Below are positions 822 through 16,598 of a stretch of 23,633 bases of DNA, piece after piece (position 1 is the first letter of the stretch; every line of letters begins with the position of its first letter). The translations under genes were made by a program, and so were the position numbers. Below the pieces are notes generated by a model. It had not been told where the DNA came from. It saw only the letters and a list, made by a program, of their open reading frames with translations, and did not search any database. The DNA is from a virus: positions 1 through 23,633 of IMG/VR virus record IMGVR_UViG_3300037010_003744. The stretch is one strand, 5' to 3'.

Positions 822-1748
822 TTACGCCTCGATGAGCGCAGCCACACCGGTTTGTGAGTTACGGCTCGCCGTTCCACCACCACGGATGGCAACGTTGAGG
901 CCCACACCACCGGCCAGTTCAGGTTTTTCGTACGGGTCCATAAACACCGCAGGAGTTCCCTTCACATAGCGCACAAATTGAGGGTGGAAGAAAATCGCAC
1001 CGATGAAGTCGGTTGTTCCACCGGCCGATCCCACGGCGCGTTTCGCGCCGGTGTTATCGAATGCCGTAGTCCGGCTCCGCAGGAACACCTCGAACGTGAA
1101 AATCCGCGCGATCGCACCCGGAGTCAACGGCTCGGCAAACAACGCGTTGTTGCTGTCGGTACCGGTACCGTAGGTTTTCTGTATCGCGAGAATATCTTCC
1201 AGGAATGGCGGAGGGATAACTACGCGCCGTCCTTCGACCGGAATGTTCCACGTGTTGAACAACGTCATCATCGCAATCCAGTCGCTTTCCTGGGTAACCT
1301 TGCGGGTACCGGTTGCACCTGGTGCGGTAGCGGCGCGGGTGGCAGTGCCCGTGGCAGACTTGATGTTTGCCGCCAAGCTCGGAGCCCATCCGTACATGAT
1401 GCGGTCAGCGAGTGACGTCATCAGCGAGTTGGTATGCTTGTACAACTTCGCTGCGCGCTTGTTATAGCTCGTCAGCAATTGGTTGTTCCAGCTGATGGGT
1501 TGTGGATTCGTGATCAGGAAGTCCGCACTGTACGTCTTCTTCGTATCTTCTTCCATCACCGTTTCAAGCGGCAGCTTGGTAGGGTTCACCAACACCGTGC
1601 TGGTGCCGGTCTCATCCTGGGGAATGGTGATCGTATCCACATCAACGCCAGCGGCATCGCTTTGGCAACCTTCGTAAAAGCTGTTGTTCGGGAACAATGC
1701 TTTCTGAACATCGCTGGATATAAGGACTTTGAGAGCTTCGTTTGCCAT
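822..1748 (-). CDS. Major capsid protein, Mu T-like
   Basis: The 308-aa protein sits downstream of the ClpP-like protease/scaffold and a small head protein, the position of gpT in Mu. The length matches Mu-type major capsid proteins of about 300 residues. It begins MANEALKVLISSDVQ. A central part has extended hydrophilic strands and an Ala/Gly/Thr-rich stretch (about residues 128-148). The C-terminal half includes IFFHPQFVRYVKGTP and YEKPELAGGVGLNV, in the style of HK97-fold coat proteins. No protease cleavage site is obvious at the N-terminus. The leader is A/T-rich without a Shine-Dalgarno sequence. It would assemble with the scaffold made from the C-terminal part of the protease gene. The call rests on position, size and style rather than a single motif. 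Confidence 0.8.
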   Translation of the reverse strand: MANEALKVLISSDVQKALFPNNSFYEGCQSDAAGVDVDTITIPQDETGTSTVLVNPTKLPLETVMEEDTKKTYSADFLITNPQPISWNNQLLTSYNKRAAKLYKHTNSLMTSLADRIMYGWAPSLAANIKSATGTATRAATAPGATGTRKVTQESDWIAMMTLFNTWNIPVEGRRVVIPPPFLEDILAIQKTYGTGTDSNNALFAEPLTPGAIARIFTFEVFLRSRTTAFDNTGAKRAVGSAGGTTDFIGAIFFHPQFVRYVKGTPAVFMDPYEKPELAGGVGLNVAIRGGGTASRNSQTGVAALIEA

Positions 1749-1808
1749 GATTATTTCAGTTTAAAAAATTCGGTTTAAGGGGTTATTGGGCGTATGAAAT
1801 GTGCTGGC

Positions 1809-2174
1809 TTAGTTGATCTGGATTTGCGGGGCCAATTGGCTGAAAGAAGTTCCATCGAACGAGAACAATATCTTCACCGTCTTGCTGGCAACTCCACTCA
1901 ACACAGTGGCGTTGTTAAAGCCGGTACCGAGCGTCACCGTGCGGATATTTCCATCGCAGGTAATCCACAATTCGAGAATTGCTCCGGCCTTCAACTCTGC
2001 ATCCAGGGGACCCGCGTTGAGCGTGATGTTACCGGTGAGCGACAACTTCTCAATCACATACTGATTGTCGATGCCGCTGTTCCCTTCTTTGGTCAGTATC
2101 TGCACTGTACCGGCACCGCTTGCAATGCTAGTGGGAACGTCAGCTTTACCGAAGGGCCATCTTGATTTTTCCAT
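1809..2174 (-). CDS. Small head protein, possible decoration protein
   Basis: This 121-aa protein is predicted to be mostly beta: alternating hydrophobic strands with many Thr, Gly, Val and Asn, for example VIEKLSLTGNITLNAG and SKTVKILFSFDGTSFSQL. It is encoded between protease/scaffold and major capsid, in the same direction and with gaps of about 60 bases on each side. Head decoration or capsid-stabilising proteins often lie at this position and have this composition. I do not recognise a specific family. It could also be another structural accessory such as a spike component. The ATG at 2174 follows an A/T-rich leader. Confidence 0.55.
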   Translation of the reverse strand: MEKSRWPFGKADVPTSIASGAGTVQILTKEGNSGIDNQYVIEKLSLTGNITLNAGPLDAELKAGAILELWITCDGNIRTVTLGTGFNNATVLSGVASKTVKILFSFDGTSFSQLAPQIQIN

Positions 2175-2233
2175 GATAGGGTATCTTTAAAATTTTTGAA
2201 TTCGAGGGTTTAGAAAATCGGGTGTGGCTTTTT

Positions 2234-2755
2234 TTACAGAGCGAATCCTGCCAGGTCGGATTCTTTCAGTTCTACACCATGCTCTGCTTTGAAGAGCGCG
2301 ATGTATTTCTTCGGCTCCTTGGTGAGCATCTGATGAAGACCTTTTTCGTCTTTCATCTGCCAGTCGGTCAGCGTCCAGTCCTTACGATCCTGGCGTCCGC
2401 CGTTTTCGGCGGAGTTGCCTTTAAGCTGCGCGATAACTTCGCTCAACCGTGGCTCATCTTCCTTGGTAGGAAGCATGTCGTAGGCTGCATCGATGTTGAT
2501 AGCAGCAACGGCTTTGATGTTCTCCAATTTCTTGGCATCAGTTACGCCGCGTTCTGTCGCGATCTTCATCAACAAGTCAACCGCTTTGCTGTCGTTGGCA
2601 GTACTGGCAGCCGAAGCGGCGGGTGCAGCAGCGGCATGCGCAGCAGCACCAGGAGCGGGAGCCGGTGTATTTTTCAAAGCAGCAACGGCCGCGTTGATTT
2701 GTTCATCAGTAGCATCAGCCGCGAGGCCGAGTGTCTTAATCAATTGATCTTTCAT
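2234..2755 (-). CDS. Probable internal-start scaffold protein (Mu Z-like)
   Basis: An in-frame ATG at 2755 lies exactly where the protease domain gives way to the scaffold region, and would make a 173-aa protein beginning MKDQLIKTLGLAADATDEQI. The bases before it are A/T-rich, like other starts here. In Mu the scaffold Z is made from an internal start in the I protease gene, and lambda Nu3 is made the same way from the C gene. The protein has an Ala/Pro-rich linker and charged C-terminal helices. That it is made as a separate product is an inference. Confidence 0.5.
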   Translation of the reverse strand: MKDQLIKTLGLAADATDEQINAAVAALKNTPAPAPGAAAHAAAAPAASAASTANDSKAVDLLMKIATERGVTDAKKLENIKAVAAINIDAAYDMLPTKEDEPRLSEVIAQLKGNSAENGGRQDRKDWTLTDWQMKDEKGLHQMLTKEPKKYIALFKAEHGVELKESDLAGFAL

Positions 2756-3409
2756 GAGATTTGAATTTTCAGGAGTTGGGTTTTCGGGATAAAAGATTTT
2801 GTCGTAGGTAGCCGCCATCTTTTCCCACGGTGTGGAGTTGGCCAGCACCGGAAGTTTTTTTTCTCCGGTCGGAATTTTCCGATCGGCAAGCTTTACATCA
2901 ATAGACTGCTGGGCGTTGAACCATTTATCCTTTCCGCTCAACCAGTTTGTCATGATCCAGGACTTCTCCTTACCTGTTCGCGTAGCGAATACATCGGCAA
3001 TGTCTTCGTTCAAAGATTCGAGCTGATCAGCATCAGCGCGGAGTTGGGTGACTGTTCCCATTGAAATCATGCGGCCTTCATGCACCATCATGCGCGCGTT
3101 GCTTGCTATCTCTGTTTCATCACAGTTGGCAGCAAACACAGCGGCCATCGATGCGGCCAATCCTTCAATGCGACAAATAGTTTTGATTCCTTTGGATCGG
3201 GCCTCCTGGACTTTGTTGCCCATTGCTATGCCTTCATAGATTGATCCGCCTCCGGAGTGAGTAGGAAAAATAATCTGCTTCGCACCCTTTGCAATCACCT
3301 CATCCATCGACTTGCTGAAATCAGCAGCATTGGCTTTCTCCCATTGAGAGATAGTGCCATACATTTTGATTTCGTAAGTGTCTTTAGCGACTGCTTTTGG
3401 CTCGAACAT
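2234..3409 (-). CDS. ClpP-like head maturation protease with C-terminal scaffold region (Mu I-like)
   Basis: The N-terminal half is a ClpP/S14-type protease fold. Counted from the ATG at 3409, it begins KDTYEIKMYGTISQW, has the SGGGS turn, then GLAASMAA with the nucleophile Ser near 87, and MMVHEG with the catalytic His near 110. The C-terminal half is low-complexity Ala/Pro (around 247-270) followed by charged helical sequence, as expected of a scaffold. The segment LIKTLGLAADATDEQINAAV resembles the scaffold part of Mu gpI-type proteins. An ATG at 3487 would add 26 basic residues; I prefer 3409, which has an A-rich leader and matches the usual start of the domain. It heads the minus late arm, divergent from terminase. 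Its role would be cleavage of scaffold and head proteins during maturation. Confidence 0.85.
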   Translation of the reverse strand: MFEPKAVAKDTYEIKMYGTISQWEKANAADFSKSMDEVIAKGAKQIIFPTHSGGGSIYEGIAMGNKVQEARSKGIKTICRIEGLAASMAAVFAANCDETEIASNARMMVHEGRMISMGTVTQLRADADQLESLNEDIADVFATRTGKEKSWIMTNWLSGKDKWFNAQQSIDVKLADRKIPTGEKKLPVLANSTPWEKMAATYDKIFYPENPTPENSNLMKDQLIKTLGLAADATDEQINAAVAALKNTPAPAPGAAAHAAAAPAASAASTANDSKAVDLLMKIATERGVTDAKKLENIKAVAAINIDAAYDMLPTKEDEPRLSEVIAQLKGNSAENGGRQDRKDWTLTDWQMKDEKGLHQMLTKEPKKYIALFKAEHGVELKESDLAGFAL

Positions 3410-3547
3410 TCTAAATTTTTTTATCCCTTTGTGAAATAGTGAACCAAAAATCACAGACATTGCACGGATAAAAAATCTTCTCTTCATCTCACCTCCGGGA
3501 TTGTTTACGTCACCTGTTTCATTTCAGCAGATCACCAAATAGTTGCC

Positions 3548-3582: not shown

Positions 3583-4050
3583 ATGATGAATGATAAAAAA
3601 GAAGCTGCGAAAGAATTATTCGACGCCGGCTTCGATCAGAAGAGCATCGCTCGTGTGCTCGATGTATCTGAGAAATCAATTTCCTCCTGGGCTACCAAAT
3701 ACAACTGGAAAGAAAAGCGCGCCAAGAAAAACATGAGCCGCGAAGTAGCTGAAGACGACGTGTGGGAGTTGATCAACTACCAGACACGCGCGCTCAAAAT
3801 GCGCAAGGATCAATATGAGGAGAAGTTCAAAAAGAAAGAAACAGAGTCACTCACACTCCTCGACAAAGGTGATATCGACGCACTTCAAAAATTATTCACC
3901 ACCATTAAGAGCAAACAATTAGAGTGGGCTACCGTGGTGAACATCATGAAAGAATTCATCGACTACGTGCAGGTGGCCGATCTGGAGCTCGCTAAAAATC
4001 TCATTCCCAAAGCCGACGATTATCTCAACATCAAACGCGCTGAGTTGTAA
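3583..4050 (+). CDS. Terminase small subunit with N-terminal HTH
   Basis: The 155-aa protein has an N-terminal helix-turn-helix (about residues 8-45: AKELFDAGFDQKSIARVLDVSEKSISSW), typical of small terminases that recognise the packaging site. The rest is a charged, helical oligomerisation region (MRKDQYEEKFKKKE and onward). Its stop overlaps the start of the large subunit by one base (TAATG), the usual pairing. Two ATGs occur in tandem at 3583 and 3586. In a Mu-like phage this protein would direct packaging from the phage end into flanking host DNA. It is the first gene of the plus-strand late arm. Confidence 0.8.
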   Translation: MMNDKKEAAKELFDAGFDQKSIARVLDVSEKSISSWATKYNWKEKRAKKNMSREVAEDDVWELINYQTRALKMRKDQYEEKFKKKETESLTLLDKGDIDALQKLFTTIKSKQLEWATVVNIMKEFIDYVQVADLELAKNLIPKADDYLNIKRAEL

Positions 4051-5657
4051 TGGCAAGGATTGATGATAAAGTCTATCAGGATTGGCTTGAATTATGCAGT
4101 CGCATAAAAAAGCAAACTACACCTATTCGGGATGAAACACCGGAGCAAAAACGCCAGCGCATCAGCGAGCTGTTGTTGATTCGTAACTTCGAGAAGTTCT
4201 GCCAATATTATTTCCCGCACTACATCGACTCTAAGTTTGGTTGGTTTCATAAAAAAGCAGCCAACGAAATTCTTAGCAAAGAAAACGTCACCGTGCTGCT
4301 CGAGTGGGCGCGTGAGCATGCCAAGTCCGTGTTTGCCGATGTGTTTATTCCGCTCTGGTTGAAAGCCACCGGTCAGCTCGATGGCATGATACTCGCCAGC
4401 GAAACAGAAGCCAAAGCAGCCAAGCTGATCGGTGATGTGCAGGCAGAGTTGATGAACAATAAAGCATACATCAACGACTTTGGTGAGCAGCGCACTATAG
4501 GCAGCTGGAGCGACGGCAGTTTCATTACAGCCGATGGCATTGGCTTCTGGTCTTTTGGTATTGGTCAAAACCCTGCCGGTGTGCGCAACGCAGGCCGCAG
4601 ACCAAACTACGGTGTGGTGGATGATGCCGCATCGAAGAAGCGAGCGAAGAATCAAGAGCTCGTTAAGCAAGATTTGGATTGGGTTAACGGAGAGTTCTTG
4701 GGGTGTTTGAGTATCAAAGGCAAACGCCTGGTCTTTGCCAACAACCGTACGGCAAAGAACGACCTTACCGCACACTTTGCCGGAGATGTGAAAGAGGGCG
4801 ACCCGATACGGCCGGGCATTGTGCACATCAAAGTTTTCGCTACCGAAGACCCGGTCACGCACAAGATGTTGCTCATCGAAAACGGAGGTGTACCGGCATG
4901 GCCACGCTACACCGTTGAAAATATTCAGGCGCGTATTTTGGAGATGGGCTACCGCAGCTCGCGCAGGCAGTTCTATCACCAGCACATTGAAGACGGTGAC
5001 ATATTCCGTGAGGAACACTTGCCGTGGGATGATGTACTGCCGCTCGATGAATACGATCAGCTCATCACGTACAATGACCCAAGTTACAAGGGGGCCAAGA
5101 AAAACGATTTTAAGGCCATTGTGCTCGTTGGCCGAAAAGGCAAGTACTATCACATCATCTGGGCGTGGGTGCGTCAGGCAAGCCGTGTGGCGATGGTATC
5201 GGCTCATTACGACATTGATGAAGCCATCCGCAAAAGGTCATTCGTACCCGGCTTAAAACCCGGTCACCGAGAGGTGATTTGTCCACATTACCTGGAGGCG
5301 AATTTTCTTCAGGAAGAATTGTATATGAGCGAGTACGACAGCGAAGGCGAAAGCCGTGGCAAGCTGTTGCGCCTTCGGGCAGACAAGCGCGCCAAGCCCG
5401 ATAAGTTTGGCCGCATTGAAGACCTGTCTCCACTGGCTGAGCGTGGACTGATTGTTTTCAATAAAAAGTTGCAGAAGAATAGCGACATGATCACCCTGCG
5501 AGAACAGTTCCTTGCCTTCCCCAACGGCCACGATGATGGGCCTGATGCCGTGGAAGGAGCAATCTATTTGCTGACGAAAACCAATCGCCGATCGGACGAT
5601 CGCCCGGCCGGGCAAATGATGGGTAAATACAAACACTCCAGCGCACGCCAGGGATGA
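4050..5657 (+). CDS. Terminase large subunit (Mu gp28-like)
   Basis: This 535-aa protein is the DNA-packaging motor and nuclease. The N-terminal ATPase part shows FHKKAANEIL, then the deviant Walker A of Mu-like terminases (WAREHAKS, residues 86-93) and the Walker B YGVVDDA (187-193). The C-terminal RNase H-like nuclease starts at ITYNDPSYKGAKKNDF, with a likely metal ligand Asp343, and ends with NGHDDGPDAVEGA near 500, which carries the final acidic ligand. Length is normal for the family. It is coupled to the small subunit by a one-base overlap and to the following 45-aa gene by ATGA. The upstream motif style REHAKS rather than classical GxxxxGKS is the main evidence for a Mu-type rather than a lambda-type terminase. 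Confidence 0.92.
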   Translation: MARIDDKVYQDWLELCSRIKKQTTPIRDETPEQKRQRISELLLIRNFEKFCQYYFPHYIDSKFGWFHKKAANEILSKENVTVLLEWAREHAKSVFADVFIPLWLKATGQLDGMILASETEAKAAKLIGDVQAELMNNKAYINDFGEQRTIGSWSDGSFITADGIGFWSFGIGQNPAGVRNAGRRPNYGVVDDAASKKRAKNQELVKQDLDWVNGEFLGCLSIKGKRLVFANNRTAKNDLTAHFAGDVKEGDPIRPGIVHIKVFATEDPVTHKMLLIENGGVPAWPRYTVENIQARILEMGYRSSRRQFYHQHIEDGDIFREEHLPWDDVLPLDEYDQLITYNDPSYKGAKKNDFKAIVLVGRKGKYYHIIWAWVRQASRVAMVSAHYDIDEAIRKRSFVPGLKPGHREVICPHYLEANFLQEELYMSEYDSEGESRGKLLRLRADKRAKPDKFGRIEDLSPLAERGLIVFNKKLQKNSDMITLREQFLAFPNGHDDGPDAVEGAIYLLTKTNRRSDDRPAGQMMGKYKHSSARQG

Positions 5658-5791
5658 TTGAAACTATGCCCAACAAATTGCACTTCGTTTGCTTCGTCGA
5701 AGTTAAGTACGATGAAGTACGCAACGCTTCCAATGTTCTTGTGCTCTCCGATGGTAAAGATATTTATGCATTCACCTTTAACCTTAATTGA
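5654..5791 (+). CDS. Small protein of 45 aa, unknown
   Basis: A short frame begins at the ATG of an ATGA overlap with the large terminase stop and ends three bases before the DUF1320 gene, so it fills the gap exactly. It reads MIETMPNKLHFVCFVEVKYD and continues through VLVLSDGKDIYAFTFNLN. The alternating hydrophobic pattern suggests a small beta protein. I do not recognise it. The tight coupling on both sides supports translation. A head-completion or packaging accessory role is only a guess from position. Confidence 0.6.
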   Translation: MIETMPNKLHFVCFVEVKYDEVRNASNVLVLSDGKDIYAFTFNLN

Positions 5792-5794
5792 AAT

Positions 5795-6265
5795 ATGGCT
5801 CTATCCGATTTTATCACCAAGGCTGATTACTTGTATCAGATCAAGACCTACAAGCTCGACCAGATTACCGAAGCTTCCGACGCTACGATCGACGCGGCTG
5901 AAACCGAAGCGCTCGGACAAGTTCAGGAGTTTCTTAGCGGACGCTACGACATGAATCTTGAGTTTGCTAAAACCGGAGCTAATCGCAATCAGGCATTGCT
6001 GCGCTGGGTGAAGTGCCTGGTGCTGTACTATCTCTACGAGCGTATCCCGGACGCACTTGTGCCGGAGCGTGTGATCAAAAACTATGACGACACGATGGAG
6101 ATGCTCAACAAGATCAGCGACGGCAAAATGAACTGCACACTCGCGCAGCTTCAGGAGTCTGACACAGATGGCAATGCAGAGCCGCTCACAAAAACACGTT
6201 GGGGAAGTCAGCCTGTGCGCTCGCAAGGAGATGGCTTTATCAACATCAACAAATTCGGAGCTTAA
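5795..6265 (+). CDS. DUF1320 (Mu gp36-like) head-tail connector protein
   Basis: The 156-aa protein matches the DUF1320 pattern: an N-terminal FITKADYLYQI segment, then Asp/Glu-rich helices with TEALGQVQEFLSGRYDMN, a hydrophobic helix (LLRWVKCLVLYYLYERIP) and a C-terminal WGSQPVRS. This family corresponds to gp36 of Mu, a head-tail connection protein. Length agrees with the family. It lies between terminase and portal, whereas in Mu it follows the capsid gene, so gene order is rearranged. A short A-rich gap precedes the portal start. Confidence 0.8.
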   Translation: MALSDFITKADYLYQIKTYKLDQITEASDATIDAAETEALGQVQEFLSGRYDMNLEFAKTGANRNQALLRWVKCLVLYYLYERIPDALVPERVIKNYDDTMEMLNKISDGKMNCTLAQLQESDTDGNAEPLTKTRWGSQPVRSQGDGFININKFGA

Positions 6266-6277
6266 AAATTTACTCTT

Positions 6278-7543
6278 ATGAAATTTGGATTAACCCGCGT
6301 GATCAACGCGCTCCCTGAGGGGATACGAAACGCCATCATGAACAGTGCCATTGAAGGCAAAGCCAAAAAGTATTTCAATGATGACGGCAAGCGCCTGAGC
6401 TTCGACATCACGGCGCGAAGGGTATTCGTGGCGCAGATGCAGCAGGATGAATTGAAGATGGCTATCATGGCCGCAGAAAATCCCGAGTTTCCAAACCGGT
6501 GGCTGCTCTATGAAATCTACCGGCAGGCGGTTCGTGAGTCACATACACGCAGCGCCATCCGCAATAACATTCTCAAAACGGTTGGCTCTCCTTTTGCCGT
6601 GTTCAAAAAAGGGTCGGAAGAAATAGACGAAGCTTCTACCCGCATTCTGCAAAAGACATGGTTTCATGATTACCGATCGCACTTTCACTCCACACCGTTT
6701 TACGGACACACGCTCATTGAGTTTGGCAAAATGATACCAAGCACAGAGCCCGGTATCGCGATGGAGTTTTCTGATGTAAAACTTTTCCCGCGCGAGCACG
6801 TGCGCCCGGAGACCGGCGAGATATTGATCAACGTGGGCGACACCATCGGTATTCCATACCGCAAGCCTCCATTCAACAAATGGTTGCTGGAAGTAGGCGA
6901 ACACGACGATCTTGGATTATTGCTGAGCGTAGCCAAAGAAGTGATCTGGAAAAACTATTCGCGTACCGATTGGAGCCGCCATAGCGAAAAGTTTGGTATG
7001 CCGATTTTGGCGATCAAGACAGCCACCAAAGATCAAAAAGAGATAAACCGGCTCGAACAGATGGCCAGCCAGTTTGGATCAAATCTTTGGGTGATCATCG
7101 ACGACCAGGATGAAGTAACCATCCTTGAATCCAAAGGGAAAGACTCGCACCAGATTTATCTGGAGAAAGCAAAGTACTGCGATGAGATGATCAGCAAGAT
7201 CATCAACGGCCAGACCGGTACCAGCGATCAGAAATCATTTGTTGGCGCTGCTGAGGTACATGAGCGTACCGAGGATGAGTTTATTGAGGACAACAAAAGG
7301 CGCGAAACCTTCTACAACAACGAGACGCTGTTTCCTTTCCTCATCGGCAAAGGTTATCCGCTGAAAGATCGTGAGTTCCGCTATCTCGATATCGACAAAG
7401 ATGGCGACGACGAGCCCGATGGCGACGAAGAACTCGACGACCAGGGCAACCCCATCAAGCCCGTGAAACCAAAACAAAAAGTGAAAGGCGCTGGAGGTGG
7501 CCTCACAAAAAAAACTTCAGCTCCGCGCAACTTGTTCAGATAA
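6278..7543 (+). CDS. Portal protein, DUF935 (Mu gp29-like)
   Basis: The 421-aa protein is a DUF935 portal, forming the DNA channel at the head vertex. Recognisable segments are LLYEIYRQAVRESHTRSAIRN near the start, TLIEFGKM, YSRTDWSRHSEKFGMP in the middle, IINGQTGTSDQKSF and EDEFIEDNKRRETFYNNETLFPFLIG. It ends in an acidic stretch (GDDEPDGDEELDDQGN) and a Lys-rich tail with GAGGGLTKK. It is somewhat shorter than Mu gp29. The last codons run over an A8 stretch at 7507-7514 followed by a hairpin that contains the stop codon. A -1 shift there would join this frame directly to the MuF frame, giving a 703-aa portal-MuF protein. Confidence 0.9.
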   Translation: MKFGLTRVINALPEGIRNAIMNSAIEGKAKKYFNDDGKRLSFDITARRVFVAQMQQDELKMAIMAAENPEFPNRWLLYEIYRQAVRESHTRSAIRNNILKTVGSPFAVFKKGSEEIDEASTRILQKTWFHDYRSHFHSTPFYGHTLIEFGKMIPSTEPGIAMEFSDVKLFPREHVRPETGEILINVGDTIGIPYRKPPFNKWLLEVGEHDDLGLLLSVAKEVIWKNYSRTDWSRHSEKFGMPILAIKTATKDQKEINRLEQMASQFGSNLWVIIDDQDEVTILESKGKDSHQIYLEKAKYCDEMISKIINGQTGTSDQKSFVGAAEVHERTEDEFIEDNKRRETFYNNETLFPFLIGKGYPLKDREFRYLDIDKDGDDEPDGDEELDDQGNPIKPVKPKQKVKGAGGGLTKKTSAPRNLFR

Positions 7544-7563
7544 CACAGGCAGCGGCGGAGCTG
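7507..7563 (+). promoter_or_regulatory. Candidate programmed -1 frameshift signal (portal to MuF)
   Basis: An A8 run (7507-7514) supplies the heptamer A AAA AAA in the portal frame, one of the most slip-prone sequences known in bacteria. Four bases later a perfect 9-bp inverted repeat begins: CAGCTCCGC (7518-7526) with GCGGAGCTG (7555-7563). The portal stop TAA (7541-7543) is in the 28-base loop. After a -1 shift the frame is open from AAC at 7513 through the whole MuF domain to 8388. No phage of this type is known to me to use this exact signal, so its function is inferred from sequence layout. Transcript slippage on the A run is an alternative. Confidence 0.65.
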
Positions 7564-7605
7564 TATCCCAAAAAAGTAGTCGAACCTTTTCAGGCAAAAG
7601 ATGGA

Positions 7606-8388
7606 GTGGATCTGTCTCAGCTTTTTGCATCCGTCACCGAGCGGGTGTACAACAAACTCATCGAGGCCGGTGACATCGACGAAGCCACCTGGCAAGCCAC
7701 CACCGACGAGCTGTGGAAATCTGTGGCCGAAGGCTACGGCATCAATCCGGTCGGTGAGTTCTCCAGGGCAGAGAAATTTATCCTGGAGCTGCGCGCCAAC
7801 GTCAATGTTTTTGCGGCCTTTAAGAACCACTTAAACATCATTGAACTGGTGAATGAGCTTACCGGTCCCGACGACAAGCCGGTGCCCTTCAGTGAGTTTA
7901 AAAAACATGCGCTGAGCATCAACGAGAAGTACAACAAAAACTACTTGCAGGCCGAGTACAACTACGCTACCGCCGCAGGCCGCGCTGCCGAAAACTGGAA
8001 AGCAGTAGAAGCACGTGGCGGAAAGCTGCTGTACCTCACCCAGCGCGATGGGCGCGTGCGCGATGCTCACCGCGAGCTGGACGGCACGGTGCTGGCCATC
8101 CACAATGAAGACGGCTCAATTAATAATTTCTGGACCATATACTATCCGCCAAATGGTTGGAACTGCCGGTGTTACTCCCGGTGGAGAAACAACGACACGC
8201 CCACGGTGATGCCGCAGGGATTCCCGGACGTGAAAGAAATGTTTCAAAATAATGTGGGCATTACCGGCCAGGTATTTACTGACGCACATCCATTCATCAA
8301 AGAGGTAGGACGCGACCAGGCAGAAAAAATTCGGCAGCAAGCCGAGAAGATGCAGAAGGAATGGGAAGCTAAACACGTAAAGGAATGA
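7606..8388 (+). CDS. MuF-type head morphogenesis protein (Mu F/SPP1 gp7-like), probably translated by frameshift from portal
   Basis: The 260 codons from a GTG at 7606 encode a minor head protein of the Mu F / SPP1 gp7 family. The signature is near residues 145-190: LTQRDGRVRDAHRELDGTVL, then YYPPNGWNCRCYSR, with the conserved NCRC cysteines. Such proteins bind the portal and a few copies enter the capsid. There is no ATG in frame before or near the domain. The frame is open upstream to the A8 run inside the portal gene, adding 31 residues from NFSSAQLVQITQAAAELYPK onward. Either GTG 7606 is the start, or more likely the domain is made as a portal fusion. It is joined to the gpG-like gene by ATGA. 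Confidence 0.85.
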   Translation: MDLSQLFASVTERVYNKLIEAGDIDEATWQATTDELWKSVAEGYGINPVGEFSRAEKFILELRANVNVFAAFKNHLNIIELVNELTGPDDKPVPFSEFKKHALSINEKYNKNYLQAEYNYATAAGRAAENWKAVEARGGKLLYLTQRDGRVRDAHRELDGTVLAIHNEDGSINNFWTIYYPPNGWNCRCYSRWRNNDTPTVMPQGFPDVKEMFQNNVGITGQVFTDAHPFIKEVGRDQAEKIRQQAEKMQKEWEAKHVKE

Positions 8389-8855
8389 TACGCAACATCA
8401 ACACCGGCCAGCCGATCGGCGGTGACTTTCGCAGCGCGGCAGAAAAGCTACGCGTATTTACCACCGAGCAACTTCCGGAGTTCACCGAGATGGCCGCACA
8501 GGATATCGTTGACAAAAGCTTTCAGGGTGAACACTACGAAGGGAACACCAGCAAGTGGAAAGGCCGGAAGAAGGAAGAGCAGCCGGGAAAGGAACGTGGT
8601 GGCCGTAGAGCACTGCTGGTAAAGACCGGCGCGCTCGTGGAACAAACCAAAGCCGAGCGCCGTGGCATGGATGTGGTAATCGCCAGCAACACGCCCTACA
8701 GCCAGGTACACAACGAAGGGTTGAGAGCTGGCCGTGGTGCAGGATTCCAGATGCCGCAGCGACAATACATGCCCATACCCGGAGAGACAAACCACGAGCT
8801 CGAAGCGCAGATCGATCGGTTTGTTGAAGATCATTTAGACAAAATTTTTGGATAA
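8385..8855 (+). CDS. Phage virion morphogenesis protein (Mu gpG-like)
   Basis: This 156-aa protein fits the phage virion morphogenesis family represented by Mu G, which acts in head completion or tail joining. Supporting features are the N-terminal helical region with LPEFTEMAAQDIVDKSF, the central WKGRKKEEQPG followed by RRALLVKTGALVEQTKAE (the common 'L..TG.L..S' pattern), and the C-terminal VIASNTPYSQVHNEG, a strong family signature, with MPQRQYMPIPGE. The ATGA overlap with MuF couples the two, as in Mu where F and G are adjacent. The length is typical. Confidence 0.85.
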   Translation: MIRNINTGQPIGGDFRSAAEKLRVFTTEQLPEFTEMAAQDIVDKSFQGEHYEGNTSKWKGRKKEEQPGKERGGRRALLVKTGALVEQTKAERRGMDVVIASNTPYSQVHNEGLRAGRGAGFQMPQRQYMPIPGETNHELEAQIDRFVEDHLDKIFG

Positions 8856-8868
8856 CCCATAAAAAGCC

Positions 8869-9429
8869 ATGTACACCTATCCGTATCAGATCATCAAGAA
8901 GAAACTTCAGGCCGACGTACCCGAGCTGAAAGAAGTTGATTGGTTCCTGCATCAGTACGATACAACCAAAAAGGAAGGCAACTTTATGACGGCGGAACCC
9001 GGAGTGTACATCGAGTTTCCGGCAGAAATTGAGTTGCAGCAGCTTGGCTTTAACATTCAGATGGCCGATGTCACCTGGACGCTGCACCTGGCCACTACCA
9101 ATGTGTTTGAAGACGACCGGCGCGTGCAGAAGGTGAGTGCCACCGATCATGCCATGATCATGGATAAGATTTTCCGCAGCCTGTTAAACTGGAGTAGTAA
9201 GCTTTCGTACTTGCCGGCCTTCGCAGCGCTCGCCGGTACATCCACTGATCAGCGCGTGGTAGGCACCATTGCACGGGTGGGTATCAATCCGCCGCACGTG
9301 TTAAAATCGCTGATGGTCACCAAGCAAAAGTTTCGTTGCGCGATGTACGATCATGCTGCCAATCCAACCTTGCAGACGATCATGAACGTGCCACTTCAAA
9401 TCAGCTCGACGGTTCGCGTAATTCAGTAA
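8869..9429 (+). CDS. Probable tail completion/terminator protein (gp37-position)
   Basis: The 186-aa protein follows the gpG-like gene in the connector arm. It starts YTYPYQIIKKKLQADVPELKE, an amphipathic N-terminal helix, then alternates strands such as PGVYIEFPAEIELQQLG and ADVTWTLHLATTNVFED. This is the alpha/beta layout of small tail-terminator or head-tail joining proteins. I do not recognise a specific domain. The position after DUF1320, portal, MuF and gpG makes a head-tail joining role likely. The leader is A-rich (ATAAAAAGCC) and there is no overlap with gpG. The gene is followed by a separate promoter for the next small gene. Confidence 0.5.
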   Translation: MYTYPYQIIKKKLQADVPELKEVDWFLHQYDTTKKEGNFMTAEPGVYIEFPAEIELQQLGFNIQMADVTWTLHLATTNVFEDDRRVQKVSATDHAMIMDKIFRSLLNWSSKLSYLPAFAALAGTSTDQRVVGTIARVGINPPHVLKSLMVTKQKFRCAMYDHAANPTLQTIMNVPLQISSTVRVIQ

Positions 9430-16172: not shown

Positions 16173-16598
16173 TCATCTTAGTTTGATTAGTTGTTCTGGT
16201 ATATCTGCTTCCCAAATACTGAGCTTACCGAGCATGGGAATCGGCTCGATCATCTGTGGCTCCTCCAGCTCCCAGCCGTAGTAGCCGGGCCAGTAGTTGC
16301 CAAACTTTAGTTCCTTCTCCGTGAGCATGTGTTTTATTTCTTCCACACGTGCGCAGTTCACCAGCTTCACTTTACCAATGATGGCTCCGGTTTGCAGCTT
16401 CGATAGATCAGGAAGTGCGGCCTTGAAAAAGGGGTCTTGCTGGCACACGTTGTAGTCGCTGAAATAAAACTGCTGCCCGGCGTGGATGTATAGGTCGCCG
16501 CGGTAATTTGTCTGCCAGTTGCGCGTCTCAAACTCCTTGTGACCCGTCACAATGAGATGGGCAAACGGCTGCTTTAGGGTGATGCATTTTATCTTCAC
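16173..16598 (-). CDS. ASCH domain protein
   Basis: The 141-aa protein has the ASCH fold signature: LKQPFAHLIVTGHKEFETRN (8-27) with the conserved P/A..I..G.K..E.R pattern, and YRGDLYIHAG (32-41). The central strand AIIGKVKLVNCARVEEIKH also matches. ASCH domains resemble PUA domains and are thought to bind RNA or modified nucleotides; related proteins act on N4-acetylcytidine. In phages they occur in early operons, often near nucleases, and may act on host RNA or modified bases. The start overlaps the membrane gene as ATGA. The ligand cannot be inferred. Confidence 0.8.
   Translation of the reverse strand: MKIKCITLKQPFAHLIVTGHKEFETRNWQTNYRGDLYIHAGQQFYFSDYNVCQQDPFFKAALPDLSKLQTGAIIGKVKLVNCARVEEIKHMLTEKELKFGNYWPGYYGWELEEPQMIEPIPMLGKLSIWEADIPEQLIKLR

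Follow-up and report, generated by a model that had tools for sequence, protein, structure and literature searches.

The Mu-like phage analysed here very probably makes its portal protein in a short and a long form, the long one carrying an additional head protein, and many related phages keep the same gene layout with different candidate slip signals. The DNA is a stretch of 23,633 nt, positions 1 to 23,633 of the IMG/VR virus record IMGVR_UViG_3300037010_003744, which we call the window. Comparison of its sequence with those of relatives makes it highly likely that a portal-MuF fusion is produced by programmed -1 slipping, in the window mainly by the ribosome. By most comparative tests the portal end has the marks of a conserved -1 recoding signal, the exception being the ranks of window-type stems over 40 nt.

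The portal gene (6278..7543, plus strand) encodes a 0-frame product of 421 aa that matches Portal_Mu (PF06074, E=1.9e-52; 179.1 bits against a curated cutoff of 23.9) and the portal protein family PHROG 113. Its end reads ACA AAA AAA ACT TCA ... AGA TAA, the stop codon occupying 7541-7543. The -1 frame is free of stops from 7375 to 8385 and closes with TGA at 8386-8388, and its stretch at 7513..8388 (plus strand) encodes 291 aa, the predicted C-terminal MuF part of the fusion, with a Phage_Mu_F match (PF04233, E=1.1e-10; 42.6 bits, cutoff 29.6). The earliest ATG, GTG or TTG in this frame is a GTG at 7606, 65 nt 3' of the portal stop, and the earliest ATG lies 668 nt 3' of that stop, in agreement with the original prediction of a frame open over 7513-8388 with no ATG before or near the MuF domain. 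The predicted lengths of the two products, 421 aa for the portal and 703 aa for the fusion, were likewise recovered, the latter as 412 portal codons plus 291. Pfam gives only MuF and a sub-cutoff Ge1_WD40 match in the MuF part, and no toxin domain in this frame. AlphaFold models of the MuF part and the portal (mean pLDDT 45.6 and 41.6) were too poor for use. The pair sits between a gp36-like gene and a neck-like gene.

Near the end of the portal gene is the slippery heptamer A_AAA_AAA (7507..7513, plus strand), which is in phase with the portal frame and part of an A8 run at 7507-7514. After a spacer of 4 nt (7514-7517) follows a perfect stem of 9 bp, with its 5' arm at 7518..7526 and its 3' arm at 7555..7563 on the plus strand. 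Inner pairs join 7527-7528 to 7552-7553 (2) and 7531-7535 to 7545-7549 (5), which brings the predicted fold to 16 pairs, with the portal stop inside its terminal loop. The arrangement of A8 run, spacer and stem with the stop in the loop had been proposed from the letters of the window, and both coordinates and fold are confirmed. Folding of 7500-7575 gives -23.5 kcal/mol with a z of -4.2, none of 200 shuffles being equally stable, and the 75 nt 3' of the heptamer fold with a z of -2.6. Within the portal gene itself, the 60 nt after the heptamer out-fold every sampled window (dG rank 0.0); over a window of 40 nt, too short to span the stem, the site does not stand out (rank 0.88). A third element of the signal was overlooked by the original prediction, a Shine-Dalgarno-like GGAGG at 7493..7497 (plus strand), 9 nt 5' of the heptamer. 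The ribosomes of the bacterial group in which the GGAGG of the window clade would act are thought to use Shine-Dalgarno pairing little for initiation, and 2 of 11 gene starts checked in the window carry a Shine-Dalgarno-like sequence. The start of a protease gene at 3487 on the minus strand has GGAGG near upstream, unlike most of the window starts checked.

The closest known parallel in form is the E. coli dnaX (tau/gamma) signal, which is made up of A_AAA_AA(G), a Shine-Dalgarno-like sequence about 10 nt upstream and a stem-loop about 5 nt downstream, the upstream stimulator of such signals acting from about 9-14 nt. The window shares all three parts. The heptamer has the X_XXY_YYZ phase, as AC[A AAA AAA]ACT in the window and in 8/8 members of its clade; the 3' structure is stable in the window and weaker in some relatives; and GGAGG lies 9 nt (7/8) or 12 nt (1/8) upstream. 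The gene is a different one, and the shift in the window adds a second domain whereas that in dnaX truncates the product. Rfam covariance models gave no match in window 7300-7800 (up to E=5) or in six relatives (gathering threshold).

Scanning IMG/VR with the window portal yielded eight loci (L002-L009), one of which, L002, matches the window at 100% identity along 7263 bp and was left out of the counts as maybe not independent. Clade counts of 8 therefore refer to the window plus L003-L009, which have best-segment identities of 79-44% and form six clusters at 80%. All seven of these relatives carry a long -1 frame at the portal end together with an in-phase A_AAA_AAG or A_AAA_AAA, and in none does the MuF frame contain a start codon closer to the portal stop than 50 nt, so the same layout with its -1 offset, which had been suggested as a check, is present throughout. 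GGAGG precedes the heptamer in all eight clade loci (by 12 nt in L009). Each time it arises from a Gly-Gly pair that uses the codon GGA, although only 8-36% of the glycine codons in these genes are GGA. Elsewhere in the eight portal genes GGAGG occurs nine times in all (0-4 per gene), and because the loci are related no probability is given for its conservation. It was found in none of 32 representatives of other groups within the 28 nt upstream, 4 of which have a weaker Shine-Dalgarno-like tetramer. Over 60 nt, the stems of 4/7 window-type clusters are in the top 5% of their own gene (combined p=1.5e-6); over 40 nt this holds for only 1/7. Three further searches added no member to the clade: a scan of genome contigs with the window-clade alignment gave no relative, a scan of viral contigs with the L009 portal gave only two contigs, both already in the set, and blastn of window 6001-9000 against phage records gave no match.

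A wider survey covered PF06074 portals from GenBank phages, IMG/VR and GTDB genomes. Of 102 loci entered, five were dropped, three that end inside or at the portal end (L028, L032, L037) and two that duplicate others (L104 and L054, duplicates of L007 and L015), and the remaining 97 were grouped at 80% portal identity into 51 clusters. The portal stop is spanned in 41/51 clusters (86/97 loci) by a -1 frame 200 codons long or longer, and 39 of these 41 (84/86 loci) have an A- or T-homopolymer heptamer in phase within the last 27 codons. The same was seen near the end of 5 of 177 control ORFs, which were taken from the same loci, start with ATG, have at least 120 codons, lie on the plus strand and are neither portal, MuF nor curated genes. 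Counted by codon position, the heptamers occupy 52/1,107 in the last 27 codons of the 41 clusters and 11/16,763 in portal bodies, and their enrichment at portal ends is therefore more than chance. The two clusters without one are L022, which has A_AAT_TTT in phase and, by eye, an apparent GC-rich inverted repeat at the stop, and L100 of the RR1-B group, where the -1 frame is present but there is no run and the genes overlap as ATGA. The MuF domain was found with E of at most 0.001 in the window and in each of 10 other -1 frames checked, 9/11 scoring above the Pfam cutoff; L020 (29.0 bits) and L022 (20.6 bits) fall below 29.6, and the other 8 of the 10 further loci pass. A scan of viral contigs with the Elizabethkingia portal found no relative. 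In L076, a Barnesiella MAG, the portal frame ends early in comparison with its sister L066, leaving no -1 frame, and this locus was not used as a representative.

The candidate signals are of three types, the first being that of the window, A6-A8 with GGAGG and a stem. The second, T_TTT_TTC followed by a hairpin, occurs in 20 clusters, among them hankyphage-type phages (L016, L080), Prevotella and Barnesiella prophages, Elizabethkingia phage TCUEAP3 and gut contigs. In an alignment of 20 sequences its hairpin arm starts 6 nt 3' of the heptamer, and the stems are in the top 5% of their own gene in 16/20 clusters over 40 nt (combined p=2e-18) and in 8/20 over 60 nt, although in L024 the hairpin is absent from the 75-nt minimum-energy fold. 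For four of its seven pairs there is at least one sequence in which both sides have changed, and 0/500 shuffles and no slid version matched the covariation score, a result that is inflated by relatedness. The third type consists of A9-A10 runs in 12 clusters (Peternella type, fF4 and RR1-B type), none with GGAGG. Runs of A9 are found in fF4 (L012) and five RR1-B-type clusters (L082, L093, L096, L098, L099) and A10 in five Peternella-type clusters; Peternella itself has A10 together with A7. Whether ranked over 40 or 60 nt, only 2/12 clusters of this type place a stem in the top 5%.

A transcriptional slippage site is a long homopolymer, of about 8-9 or more, and requires no structure. For the A9-A10 groups, slippage of this kind is probably to be preferred over a ribosomal slip. 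By locus, such runs stand at the portal ends of L015, L055-L061, L012, L082, L088-L093, L095-L099 and L101, which are candidate transcriptional slippage sites. The same could be proposed for the window, with an extra A put into the A8 run by RNA polymerase and the longer mRNA then read as one frame by normal ribosomes, but we consider this unlikely there. The A8 runs of the window and L005 would by themselves allow it, and the A9 or A10 of other groups, in clusters without GGAGG and mostly without a top-ranking stem, are what it would lead one to expect. However, 5/8 loci of the clade have only A6 and one (L009) has A7, which lowers its likelihood, and it needs neither the GGAGG of 8/8 loci nor the well-ranked stem of 4/7 clusters, yet the clade keeps both. 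The T6C relatives, moreover, retain a covarying hairpin.

Ribosomal slipping must also be weighed against synthesis of MuF as a separate protein, from a GTG, TTG or non-standard start or by termination and reinitiation at the portal stop, a reading that fares slightly worse than transcriptional slippage and that we regard as improbable. The GTG at 7606 would offer a start in the window, and in 10/41 clusters the MuF frame has an ATG, GTG or TTG within 30 nt of the portal stop that could permit coupled initiation. Annotators do place such starts, at differing points in two hankyphage-type records, but 31/41 clusters have none that near, and a separate start leaves heptamer and hairpin unexplained. 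In the two records (L016, L080; PQ571270, PV107408) the annotated MuF start overlaps the portal stop in one and lies downstream of it in the other, and 1947/2000 bases around the portal stop are equal. In L008 and L009 the first possible start comes some 100 codons into the frame, beyond sequence that is conserved in the manner of a protein. Across the 100 codons that separate the portal stop of L008 from its earliest possible start, the two loci differ by 42/30/70 substitutions at codon positions 1/2/3, with 48 identical residues and a third-position excess of binomial p=6e-5. This pattern argues that the stretch is translated, which initiation at a standard start cannot bring about. The window and L003 differ by 6, 4 and 12 substitutions at positions 1, 2 and 3 over the 20 codons of their equivalent interval, and in pairs more distant than these the pattern is weaker or absent, near saturation. 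Independent MuF initiation is rejected for the window clade, and is a possibility in the 10 of 41 clusters with a nearby start.

An A8 run misread in sequencing or assembly, or a decaying prophage with a frameshift mutation, is a very unlikely explanation and was rejected, for although homopolymers are error-prone and the identical L002 is perhaps not independent, the same -1 offset persists in seven relatives from six clusters, whose A runs vary from 6 to 8 and whose flanks differ.

Portal-MuF fusions also exist as single ORFs. L094 is one ORF of 1024 aa holding portal and MuF parts, the first of which is 76% identical to the portal of phage RR1-B up to ...VKKN, and the second, from that KK on, 79% identical to the -1 frame of RR1-B. 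A protein of the L094 type would in RR1-B need a shift at its A9 run. Both domains are likewise held in single ORFs by L014 (Porphyromonas, 853 aa) and L021 (855 aa), and the window MuF matches L021 residues 447-697 at 34%. The existence of these in-frame fusions means that the fused protein is a workable form, and together with the layout of L003-L009 and the conservation between L008 and L009, L094 as a relative of RR1-B lends support to the portal-MuF frameshift that had originally been read from the window. Recoded versions would yield a mixture of products, unlike the single-ORF fusions.

The three fusions are among the 10 clusters without the -1 frame (L010, L011, L014, L021, L081, L083, L086, L087, L094, L102), and 7/51 clusters (L010, L011, L081, L083, L086, L087, L102) lack both a long -1 frame and a fusion. 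In FPSV-S27 (L010) and lotta8-1 (L011) a distinct MuF-like gene has a start of its own just 3' of the portal stop, the MuF genes of Vibrio martha (L081) and Pasteurella AFS-2018a (L083) are annotated separately, and the unannotated Klebsiella Kp4866-3 (L087) shows a long +1 frame. The original prediction named, as evidence that would count against it, homologues in which MuF has its own start and the signal is missing; such homologues are absent from the clade and occur in L010, L011 and the Vibrio and Pasteurella loci. As separate MuF genes are found in distant relatives, the layout is lineage-wide and not universal.

In the mechanism that we propose, an elongating ribosome would meet AAA AAA with GGAGG upstream and the stem downstream, which together would help two tRNALys slip back by one base. 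Most ribosomes would stop at 7541 and release the 421-aa portal, and a fraction would continue in the -1 frame to give the 703-aa fusion. Because portals are rings of subunits, about twelve in number, fused and plain subunits could co-assemble in one ring, and a frameshift of roughly a tenth, set against such a ring, would leave a few MuF domains tethered at the portal through the hydrophilic linker of the portal C-terminus. Related lineages would reach the fusion through T_TTT_TTC and a hairpin, through A9-A10 runs (probably by transcriptional slippage) or through a plain in-frame ORF. We infer the slipping, the co-assembly and the ratio of products, including the 'fixed ratio' of the original prediction, from the layout and its conservation.

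The tail-assembly chaperone frameshift of phages, lambda G/GT, was reportedly described by Xu and colleagues in 2004. It too is a programmed slip in a phage structural operon that gives a short protein and a minor long form, although the pair there lies between the major tail and tape-measure genes and that of the window consists of the head genes portal and MuF. Frameshifts of the G/GT type are cited in parts of two papers (PMC6316719; PMC2628397), and capsid and tail-tube frameshifts are on record for the major head protein of phage A2 and for SPP1 gp17.1* (a title cited in PMC5009743; PMC6316719). These are, as here, virion proteins with a minor C-terminally extended form, but there a shell or tube subunit gains the extension, and here the portal gains MuF. 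In-frame portal-MuF fusions are reported for Microbacterium cluster EA/EB phages (in part of PMC7302621), and PBECR fused to MuF and portal domains in a section of PMC5512222. Like L014, L021 and L094, the Microbacterium fusions join the same two domains in one ORF, and unless the product is processed MuF would be present on every portal subunit. In SPP1, according to part of PMC5576092, gp6 is the portal and gp7 the MuF protein, the latter encoded by a separate gene and bound non-covalently.

Among the open PMC papers listed, no title, abstract opening or excerpt examined describes a portal-MuF frameshift, and no open PMC paper was found to combine DUF935 with a frameshift. The word 'portal' does not occur in the portion examined of a frameshift review (PMC5009743) or in a genome-wide frameshift survey (PMC3711429), and the word 'frameshift' is absent from papers on hankyphages (PMC12135933; PMC6199706), Peternella (PMC8776804) and MuF proteins (PMC5576092; PMC11699363; PMC5512222). 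The mechanism is known in kind; for this gene pair and range of phages we found no report in the open literature searched.

Beyond MuF, the -1 frames of several relatives carry CdiA_C (L008, L009), Gln_amidase (L016, L020), PBECR2 (L012, L082) and LPD3 (L018). As these MuF frames end in domains of toxin, nuclease and polyvalent-protein types, the slip signals may set the dose of a phage-carried payload. A wider proposal is evenly poised in our judgement, namely that recoding of portal to portal-MuF is general in PF06074 phages and has been re-invented repeatedly (as GGAGG with a stem, T_TTT_TTC with a hairpin, A9-A10 runs or one ORF), and that portal rings are mixed, few of their subunits bearing MuF and, in certain gut Bacteroidales phages, an enzymatic or toxin-like payload whose dose and capsid targeting a translation signal would govern, with the GGAGG of the clade perhaps acting on elongating ribosomes. 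MuF proteins are carriers of phage-borne antibacterial toxins, and annotations treat them as genes of their own whose starts are guesses. If MuF is instead made as a recoded extension of the portal, current assumptions on its N-terminus, copy number and capsid route would be wrong, also for the Bacteroides hankyphages, which are widespread. Such recoding would be a further conserved frameshift among the structural genes of tailed phages, testable in cultured phages, and would offer a natural experiment in which one product is reached via several slip mechanisms.

The head genes of the window lie on both strands, with the major head protein and a Clp-type protease on the minus strand (822-3487) and terminase, portal, MuF and neck protein on the plus strand (3583-8855). 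A small ASCH-domain protein is encoded in the early region at 16173-16598 on the minus strand.
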